From Candidatus Kaistella beijingensis (GTDB lineage Bacteria > Bacteroidota > Bacteroidia > Flavobacteriales > Weeksellaceae): 64,000 nt of DNA. The stretch lies in the NCBI RefSeq assembly GCF_020084865.1, contig NZ_CP071953.1, positions 2,480,001 to 2,544,000 of the forward strand. Reading direction: 5' to 3'. This document shows positions 1,612 to 62,700 of the stretch, piece after piece. Below the pieces are notes generated by a model. That model was not told the origin of the DNA. It saw only the letters and a list, made by a program, of their open reading frames with translations, and ran no database searches. The translations under genes and the position numbers were made by a program. Each line of letters opens with the position of its first letter. The first letter of the stretch is position 1.

Positions 1612-1656
1612 TTAAATTTCGAAGATTTTTCTTTGCACCAAAAATAGTATCAATTT

Positions 1657-1697
1657 GCCACGAATGCACGAATAATTAGTGAATTCGTGGCATTTTT
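1657..1697 (+). terminator. Rho-independent terminator after the aminotransferase gene
   Basis: GCCACGAAT (1657-1665) pairs perfectly with ATTCGTGGC (1683-1691), followed by ATTTTT. It sits 46 nt after the stop codon. Confidence 0.75.
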
Positions 1698-23077: not shown

Positions 23078-23085
23078 TTTTTGGT

Positions 23086-23658
23086 AACAACATAGTCACA
23101 TAGTTTTTTGTGAATTATATTAGTAAAAATAGAAATATATGTATTTATCAAGATTATTCTATGTTACTGTGTGGTTTAAATATAAAAAACAATGATAACA
23201 CAATCTTACATCGAGAAATTAACTTACAATATTATTGGAGCCTGCATTGAGGTGCATAAAATCGTAGGTCCGGGTTTGTTGGAAAGTGTTTATCAGAAAT
23301 GTTTAGAAGAAGAATTGAGAATTCAAAACATTAATTTTATTTCTGAATTGCAGATTCCTATTGATTATAAAGGAAAAATTGTTCATTCCGATTTCAGATG
23401 TGATTTTTTAATTGCCGATTGCATAATCCTTGAGATAAAATCCGTGAAAGATATCGATGACATTCACAAAGCGCAAGTTTTAAATTATATGAATCTTTTG
23501 AAAGTTCCTAAAGGTATTTTGGTTAACTTTAATGTAACAAACATTTTCCATGAAGGACAAAAAACATTTGTTAATAAATATTTTCAGCAATTGAGTTAAC
23601 TTAGCGGCAATAATCTATTTTCACTAAAGAAATAAAAAAACTATGTGACTATGTGGTT
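23086..23658. mobile_element. Candidate inverted-repeat unit carrying a GxxExxY gene
   Basis: The 24-nt sequence at 23086-23109 (aacaacatagtcacatagtt plus tttt) is the reverse complement of 23635-23658 with one mismatch. A third, weaker arm (ctatgttactgtgtggttt) lies at 23159-23177, so 23086-23180 alone resembles the gene-less 122-bp element at 55446-55567. The unit holds exactly one gene. No target-site duplication or transposase is visible, so mobility is inference; it could instead be a regulatory palindrome pair. Confidence 0.6.
23192..23599 (+). CDS. GxxExxY family protein (PD-(D/E)XK nuclease-like)
   Basis: This 135-aa protein has the naming motif at G28-E31-Y34 (GLLESVY) and a PD-(D/E)XK-type core: D71 or D76, then E81 and K83 in DFLIADCIILEIKSV. 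The family is common in Bacteroidota and predicted to be nuclease-fold; no activity or partner is established to my knowledge. All core acidic and lysine positions are present, so it may be active. It lies inside a pair of 24-nt inverted repeats and has no obvious promoter of its own. Confidence 0.85.
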   Translation: MITQSYIEKLTYNIIGACIEVHKIVGPGLLESVYQKCLEEELRIQNINFISELQIPIDYKGKIVHSDFRCDFLIADCIILEIKSVKDIDDIHKAQVLNYMNLLKVPKGILVNFNVTNIFHEGQKTFVNKYFQQLS

Positions 23659-23698
23659 AAAACAAATTCAGCTATTCAAAATTTCTTTTTAAAAATTA

Positions 23699-34439: not shown

Positions 34440-34576
34440 AAAATTCTTATTTAATTGCAAAACTAAATAAAAAAATTTCAATGCAACTATGTGCCAAATT
34501 ATCAATGCGGAACTTTAGCATTTTATCAATTCAATCAATTGCAATCTTATGAAATACAATTTGCAACTATTGCGTC

Positions 34577-34607
34577 TTGCACCTTGCACCAAATTGAGTA
34601 AATTTGC
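34577..34607 (+). promoter_or_regulatory. Consensus promoter of gltX
   Basis: TTG at 34577-34579, a 19-nt spacer and TAAATTTGC at 34599-34607 match the consensus exactly. The leader is about 15 nt. Confidence 0.75.
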
Positions 34608-36260: not shown

Positions 36261-36394
36261 GAAGTGGAGAAATAATATTTTTAAATCCCCGATTTTCAAT
36301 TCTGTAAACTTGTTCTGAACAATATTTGATACAAAATATTCCCCTTTTACTTTTGTGACTTTTATGGTTTGAAAAGTAAGTTATTTGTGATTTT

Positions 36395-55445: not shown

Positions 55446-55567
55446 AAACCACATAGTCACATAGTTTTTCTTGAAAATAAAAACGTAGATAAAGTAAAAA
55501 TAGTGGTATTCTTCTATTTTACCTTTAAATCCTCATTAAGAATATTTTCTATGTGTCTATGTGGTTT
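55446..55567. repeat. Gene-less 122-bp inverted-repeat element (relative of the GxxExxY unit)
   Basis: Ends AAACCACATAGTCACATAG (55446-55464) and CTATGTGTCTATGTGGTTT (55549-55567) are inverted copies with one mismatch in 19. The same arm sequence bounds the GxxExxY unit at 23086-23658. The interior (about 84 nt) encodes nothing. It lies 32 nt before the CCA-adding enzyme start, so it may carry or alter that gene's promoter. The shape is like a MITE or a long hairpin. Confidence 0.7.
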
Positions 55568-60043: not shown

Positions 60044-60222
60044 AGTTAACTTTCAGCAAGGTCTCCTGACTTTCACTTTTCAACTCCTTCTCGCTTTTCG
60101 CAATGGATTGTTTGTTGAAAATTTTAATTCCGTCTTCGGTCTTCGGACTTCAGACTTCTCGTGATTTACAGTTGCGGGGACAGTTCGCGGATTTCACGCG
60201 ATTCCCTTTTCCGAAAGTGGTA
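60044..60222 (-). promoter_or_regulatory. Cobalamin riboswitch controlling btuB
   Basis: Reading the minus strand, conserved elements appear in order: AAAAGGGAA then GTGAAATCC (60188-60197), ACTGTCCCCGCAACTGTAA (60168-60186), and the B12 box AAGTCAGGAGACCTTGC (60057-60072). These are hallmarks of the adenosylcobalamin aptamer. A hairpin AACTTT-CGGAGGA-AAAGTT (60013-60031) lies just before the ATG. The riboswitch should shut off btuB and the BtuG-like gene when B12 is plentiful. Confidence 0.93.
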
Positions 60223-62663: not shown

Positions 62664-62700
62664 CAACTATTGCTCATTACTCATTGCTCATTTCTCCTCA
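62664..62700 (+). repeat. Micro-repeat upstream of the Crp/Fnr gene
   Basis: ttcaactattgctcattactcattgctcatttctcc is the reverse complement of the TAATGAGCAAT units seen elsewhere. It lies between the two divergent promoters. Confidence 0.6.

Follow-up and report, generated by a model that had tools for sequence, protein, structure and literature searches.

A GxxExxY nuclease-like gene bracketed by mirrored short-word arrays in Candidatus Kaistella beijingensis, a candidate small mobile element

The closest described systems to the locus reported here are the REP/RAYT pairs and the TIRtrons, the latter being RAYT-like genes flanked by terminal inverted repeats (accessible portion of PMC3733652). 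In these a chromosomal, single-copy-like enzyme gene is bracketed by inverted repeats and has gene-less relatives in the genome. The rRNA intervening sequences that carry S23/IVP genes (PF05635) place a small ORF inside mirrored ends, have gene-less forms and are patchy in occurrence (available part of PMC4990558). The TAACTGA-type heptamer repeats are tandem 7-nt words in the intergenic DNA of Cyanobacteria, Bacteroidetes and Beggiatoaceae; they are direct repeats with no gap, to which the sections of PMC4679880 accessible to us assign no gene, and the same source itself considers a repeat-binding protein as their mobile part.

We analysed a window of 64,000 nucleotides from Candidatus Kaistella beijingensis, by which we mean the whole stretch, in which a unit of approximately 575 bp lies between pdxA (PF04166) and yceD (PF02620) and consists of a hairpin, a GxxExxY gene and a closing arm (Table 1). 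A preliminary description had reported a single intact GxxExxY gene between arms that agree at 23 of 24 bases, and it was right on both counts; the outer arms agree at 24 of 25 bases, the ORF is confirmed by PF13366 and TIGR04256, and the ORF list contains no other frame of at least 60 aa inside the unit. The likeness it saw between the left end of the unit and a gene-less element some distance away is also borne out, since that left end is a hairpin of the same layout, and the ends of the gene-less element do match at 18 of 19 bases. In an inverted-repeat scan of the window the outer-arm pair of the unit ranks first among 25. The 19-nt arm, with up to three mismatches allowed, occurs five times in the window compared to 0.01 expected from shuffles.

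Table 1. Positions of the GxxExxY unit and of related repeats in the window
Feature	Positions	Strand	Remarks
Left outer arm	23085..23109	+	Two CACATAG words in plus-strand reading; 24/25 bases mirror 23635-23659
Inner arm	23159..23177	-	Arm match with 2 mismatches; closes hairpin 23085-23177 with the left arm
GxxExxY gene	23192..23599	+	135 aa; family membership and predicted fold indicate a PD-(D/E)XK nuclease
Right outer arm	23635..23659	-	Two CACATAG words in minus-strand reading
Gene-less hairpin, CACATAG word	55446..55567		Arms 55446-55464 and 55549-55567; lies 33 bp before a poly(A)-polymerase/CCA-type gene
37-bp hairpin, CACGAAT word	1656..1692		CACGAAT also brackets GxxExxY genes of two sister genomes (L269, L272)
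Lone arm, CACAAAAG word	36350..36367	-	1 mismatch

The window protein matches TIGR04256 (1.9e-40, 137.8 bits with a curated cut-off of 35) and PF13366 (5e-39, 133.7 bits with a curated cut-off of 22). No Pfam domain other than PF13366 was found in it, and hence no known transposase, no PF01797 (Y1/HUH) and no PF05635. Six residues (G28, E31, Y34, D71, E81 and K83) are invariant in alignments of 30 and of 50 sequences, and the last three are the D/E-x-K core that the preliminary description had pointed out. The structure model has a pLDDT of 94.9 and a predicted Cas4/RecB-like fold, for which the best E-value in Foldseek is only 1.7e-3; a search for sequence matches in the PDB gave none. The best reading of family and predicted fold is that GxxExxY is a minimal, putatively Cas4/RecB-like PD-(D/E)XK nuclease, smaller than the Cas4/RecB-type enzymes themselves.

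The arrangement described for REP/RAYT and TIRtrons is shared by the unit and, as with RAYT/REP, its genome has dispersed palindromes related to the unit ends; the hairpins built on the CACATAG word number 15 at 10 places, including the one that forms the left end of the unit with the gene. In contrast to REP/RAYT, the enzyme is of PD-(D/E)XK type (PF13366), not Y1/HUH, and the arms are arrays of short words whereas a REP is a structured hairpin. Because the enzyme is unrelated, we describe the unit as one that would work like RAYT/REP, not as a member. It has inverted terminal repeats in common with MITEs and insertion sequences but, unlike an insertion sequence, includes no known transposase. 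The features listed above for the rRNA intervening sequences recur here, but the unit is intergenic rather than within an rRNA gene and its protein is a predicted nuclease, not PF05635. The ungapped TAACTGA heptamers contrast with the GxxExxY words, which have spacers of 1-5 nt and are mirrored around a gene. In the accessible portions of the open-access literature we found no description of GxxExxY genes with such repeats, the mentions of GxxExxY there being unconcerned with repeats, and a search for the arm strings returned nothing relevant among the matches listed.

There are four GxxExxY genes in the genome (2.816 Mb), three of them bracketed by arms and one with an array on one side only. 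The gene at 2317077 has CACAAAAG pairs on both sides, and these repeat the layout of the window unit in that one flank carries a hairpin and the opposite flank a lone arm. The gene at 607149-607498, which is broken by a stop and lies between FecCD and ABC genes, has CGCAAAG pairs on both sides, and that at 2247906 adjoins, on one side only, a tandem array of CACATAG hairpins. The 19-nt arm, whose genome-wide count had been suggested in the preliminary description, has 24 copies at up to three mismatches as opposed to none for the reversed pattern. The arm is not, however, a single fixed 19-mer. It consists of tandem copies of a 7-8 nt word, and each gene may have a different word, for which reason two of the four genes would be overlooked if the 19-nt arm were the sole query. 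What stands of the proposed RAYT/REP-like pairing is that nuclease gene and repeat form a unit and that gene-less relatives exist. Neither of the two outcomes that the preliminary description had named as refuting was obtained, in that arms do accompany the other GxxExxY genes and orthologous sites lacking the unit were found. The sequence CCACATAGNCACATAG at up to one mismatch is present 31 times in this genome and four times in 35 sister genomes combined, a burst in this one lineage that speaks for a mobile element; these four matches, from three genomes, are all CACATAG/CACAAAG hybrids and equal in number the four matches of the reversed pattern over all 36 genomes. The genome also carries three Y1 transposase genes (PF01797; L423, L424 and L425), located elsewhere than the unit. 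Each of these is accompanied by a G+C-rich, REP-like inverted repeat that resembles neither the repeats of the other two nor the CACATAG arms.

The arm CCACATAGTCACATAG is CACATAG twice with one base between and, in general, the arms are tandem copies of a word of approximately 7 nt, mirrored around the gene. In most lineages seen the word has the core C-R-C-n-R-A-G. Aligned two-word arms of sufficient length were available at 55 of the 106 phylum and cross-phylum loci. There, a comparison of the left arm with the right gives differences at word positions 1 to 7 in 3, 18, 1, 56, 23, 1 and 1 of 146 words, respectively, and at 112 of 273 spacer positions. At 20 genus loci the contrast is weaker, with 2, 2, 0, 12, 4, 4 and 4 differences in 45 words and 60 in 184 spacer positions. 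The sparing of C1, C3, A6 and G7, together with variable spacers and a variable position 4, is as expected if the word is read by a protein; a stem kept for pairing would be indifferent to position. The spacers are mostly 2 or 3 nt (119/294 and 96/294), which gives a word every 9-10 bp or so, close to a full turn of the helix. Some arms match without a single difference, spacers too (33/33 bases at L116 and 27/27 at L193), and arms may begin as mirror copies that decay first where nothing reads them.

How widely is this organization found? We compared 199 GxxExxY loci; 93 from the genus, 30 from a sample of Bacteroidota and 76 from a cross-phylum set. The family is present in 33 of 36 genus genomes and the 93 loci derive from 31 of those 33, with five matches above 100 bits and short fragments left out, whilst in the Bacteroidota sample it is present in 60 of 118 genomes. 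The cross-phylum set is a non-random one, namely the best 80 of 573 confirmed loci with one genome per species, from which four with flanks below 150 bp (L136, L156, L163 and L196) were dropped. Ungapped inverted repeats were scored between 400-bp flanks, using as control the upstream flank of one locus with the downstream flank of another. For the first 33 genus loci a score of at least 15 is reached by 17/33 compared to 24/1056 swapped pairs, and at least 18 by 12/33 compared to 8/1056. The Bacteroidota loci give 18/30 against 37/870 at a score of at least 13 and 6/30 against 5/870 at 16 or above, and the cross-phylum loci (76 from the best 80 of 573) 32/76 against 36/1501 at a score of at least 15. 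The top genus swapped pairs listed mostly share a word, which makes the swap control conservative. A clear inverted repeat (score of at least 14) together with an intact ORF is found at 91 of the 199 loci, one or both being missing at 108. The titles in the cross-phylum set (best 80 of 573) cover Bacteroidetes, Ignavibacteria, Chlorobiaceae, Planctomycetota, Verrucomicrobia, Lentisphaerales, Chloroflexota, Cyanobacteria (Anabaena, Nostoc, Tolypothrix), Acidobacteria, alpha-, beta- and gammaproteobacteria, Mariprofundus, Nitrospinota, Sumerlaeota and Hydrogenedentota, with arms not at every locus. In Sphingomonas parapaucimobilis (NZ_CP155749.1, L427) a GxxExxY gene sits between fabD and fabG in a fatty-acid operon, a locus at which a clear inverted repeat was not found.

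A word motif, consisting of a pair of C[AG]C[AGT][GA]A[GT] with a spacer of 1-5 nt, was drawn up when the arms were already known and its counts are descriptive; distance bins, PF05635 loci and YceD loci served as controls. Inward-facing pairs within 100 bp occur upstream on the plus strand at 66 and downstream on the minus strand at 73 of the 199 loci, compared to 1 to 5 of 199 per bin more than 400 bp out. Pairs in the opposite orientation are also present within 100 bp (24/199 and 26/199). Within 300 bp, inward words are found on at least one side at 62/76 and on both sides at 39/76 of the cross-phylum loci (from the best 80 of 573), with corresponding values of 24/30 and 13/30 for Bacteroidota, and 25/93 and 8/93 for the genus. 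The genus count is low because many arms there use other words (CACAAAAG, CATTAAG, AATCTGTG). At 30 loci of PF05635, another small intergenic family, the motif is on one side at 1/30 and on both sides at none, and 30 YceD loci gave three matches in 105,546 bases, both strands included.

Several questions follow. Are the arms read by the protein that they enclose? Does the unit move, and if so by its own nuclease? Could the arms serve another purpose? On balance, and with moderate confidence, we consider that the GxxExxY gene and its mirrored word arrays belong together as a single genetic unit, and that this unit is a small mobile element of the chromosome driven by the nuclease. The arms, as predicted binding-site arrays, would be read by the GxxExxY protein of the element itself, which may then cut at the arms or at the target, after which host repair or replication would copy or lose the element. 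Gene-less hairpins would represent deletion derivatives; some would remain where they formed, others would owe their spread to a nuclease produced from another locus of the genome, and some would multiply in tandem.

It is also conceivable, though unlikely in our judgement, that GxxExxY or a partner binds the word arrays as control sites, which regulate the gene itself or mark DNA for or against the nuclease, with the scattered arms being regulatory and movement incidental. The arms do hug the ORF, often only 0-20 bp away in the cross-phylum set (from the best 80 of 573), they are kept at orthologous sites, and the conserved word has the appearance of a putative binding site. Yet the gene is flanked by arms to its left and right that are mirror images, hairpins that share these ends but contain no gene lie far from any GxxExxY gene, and arms and gene are absent together at the site of the window unit in other genomes.

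Orthologous empty sites, a comparison proposed in the preliminary description, do exist and agree with a mobile element. The pdxA-yceD site could be read in 30 of the 36 genus genomes, and the unit is present in one of these, its own, the other 29 having neither arm nor gene. The 55446 element is likewise restricted to its own genome, one of 30 genus genomes read. The sister genomes are too diverged at the empty sites for a junction to be placed, and neither a target-site duplication nor an exact junction was found there; no newly landed copy was seen in the sites compared among the genus genomes. The 175-bp pdxA-yceD gap of one genome (G032, L074) holds a different palindrome-like insert that has no GxxExxY words.

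Two further sites display gene loss in place. The gap between a NifU-type gene and ferrochelatase was found in 30 of 36 genomes. The whole unit is present in G016, G003, G009, G031 and G008, the gene of G003 having a stop, whilst in G007 the two ends enclose a truncated gene and in G011 there is a bare hairpin, roughly 50 bp long. Other repeats occupy this gap in other species (L394-L417); as judged by eye, these are tandems of TTGATAG or TTAGATG as well as palindromes, for example AATGAGTAATGAGCG...CATTACTCATT. The L272 site was searched in five genomes. Of these, G005 and G007 carry the gene, like G016, and G030, G035 and G002 have approximately 95-115 bp between the flanks and no gene; the remnants in G030 and G035 begin with the same left arm and that in G002 has a decayed left arm. 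In G007 a 178-bp piece, comprising the 3' end of the gene and the right arm, is in tandem. Hairpins thus come about when the gene is lost from its site, and tandem arrays grow from arms. The gene-less relatives claimed for the unit are real, but some arose by such deletion and need not have moved separately. The remnant in G035 (L433, L437) is a hybrid, with the CACGAAT word in the left arm and the CACAAAAG word in the right.

Copy number also varies. Copies of CCACAAAAGNCACAAAAG number between 0 and 62 per genome, and 29 of the 36 genomes contain it. The seven genomes in which a gene bracketed by a CCACAAAAGNCACAAAAG arm was found hold more copies than the other 29 (p 0.003, with kinship uncorrected and gene classes assigned by the analyst from the arms). 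A contrary case is G005, which has 62 copies but no gene with such an arm among the loci read.

Might the units simply be old and vertically inherited, with every gene-less hairpin a decayed gene-bearing unit and nothing moved in trans? Gene loss at the two sites supports this, as does the finding that 65 of 78 arm-similar genus pairs share neighbours as opposed to 13 that do not; much of the likeness is therefore vertical and long vertical inheritance is common. In addition the loops of the hairpins in the genome are hardly alike, with p<=0.01 in 5 of 45 comparisons. We nevertheless hold this to be quite improbable as a full account, given 15 hairpins at 10 places against two genes with the CACATAG word, a word family confined to the one genome, and the absence of the 55446 element from 29 of the 30 genus genomes read.

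Returning to the mobile element, arm and protein vary together. Similarity of arm and of protein was compared (Mantel) for the 91 loci with a clear inverted repeat and intact ORF, with pairs that have any homologous neighbour removed. The correlation over all loci is 0.353 (0/5000 permutations), within the genus 0.412 (0/5000), in the cross-phylum set (from the best 80 of 573) 0.442 (0/5000) and, more weakly, 0.284 for phylum and cross-phylum loci together (5/5000). Such co-variation fits recognition of the arm by the protein, although it can also come from joint descent, from the unit travelling whole or from host lineage. The co-variation bears on the suggestion, in our opinion very unlikely, that an unrelated transposase mobilizes the arms as its ends, with GxxExxY carried along as cargo. 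Insertion sequences and MITEs are indeed well established to have mirrored ends and gene-less copies too, but the arm word follows the GxxExxY protein across phyla and, among transposases, the Y1 class was checked and its three genes in this genome have other inverted repeats and no matching arms. Highly improbable is a scheme in which the arms pair in the transcript and RNase III excises the unit from host mRNA, the insertion being tolerated as with rRNA intervening sequences, for in spite of a stem of 24/25 bases around the whole gene in the window unit, and of units placed inside an operon, for example between FecCD and its ABC partner, the arm mismatches show no sign of a G-U bias (47 versus 44) and the spacers differ freely when four word positions do not.

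The PF05635 family offers a parallel. At 30 of its loci in the Bacteroidota sample (L273-L302; 23S-IVP/four-helix-bundle) an inverted repeat with a score of at least 15 is present in 10/30 compared to 3/870 swaps, and lag-7 (period-7) repeats are found at 80% of loci compared to 28% of 60 control flanks. The mirrored arrays use words of their own, of the AGTATCA, TTAGTAN, GTACNAA and GAGTCNT types, that are different from the GxxExxY words, and a link between these period-7 arrays and the orphan TAACTGA heptamers is possible. The window, too, has short arrays with a period of 7 of the type found beside PF05635 genes, at 2822-2850, 34570-34590, 60128-60156 and 62669-62689. We raise, tentatively and with some doubt, the possibility that a class of small self-spreading elements exists across bacteria, with GxxExxY nucleases as its enzymes and with ends that are word arrays read by the enzyme, in which word and enzyme diversify together and each lineage has its own word, and that PF05635 (S23/IVP) genes with period-7 arrays constitute a second, parallel class, the latter being the bolder part of the proposal.

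If this is true then orphan intergenic heptamer repeats such as TAACTGA would gain their missing partner protein in PF05635, and the rRNA intervening sequences would be one special case of the PF05635 class. GxxExxY is a large named family, of at least 7216 proteins, with no assigned role. Given a fixed DNA partner, its function can be tested, and directly so because the DNA to offer each enzyme is readable from its own flanks; the natural co-variation of word and protein is furthermore a data set for reading out DNA specificity. Should the unit be mobile as we propose, nuclease-plus-palindrome elements would have arisen with an enzyme that has no relationship to RAYT, an owner could be named for many intergenic palindromes so far unexplained, and the GxxExxY units would represent an apparently overlooked kind of small mobile element.
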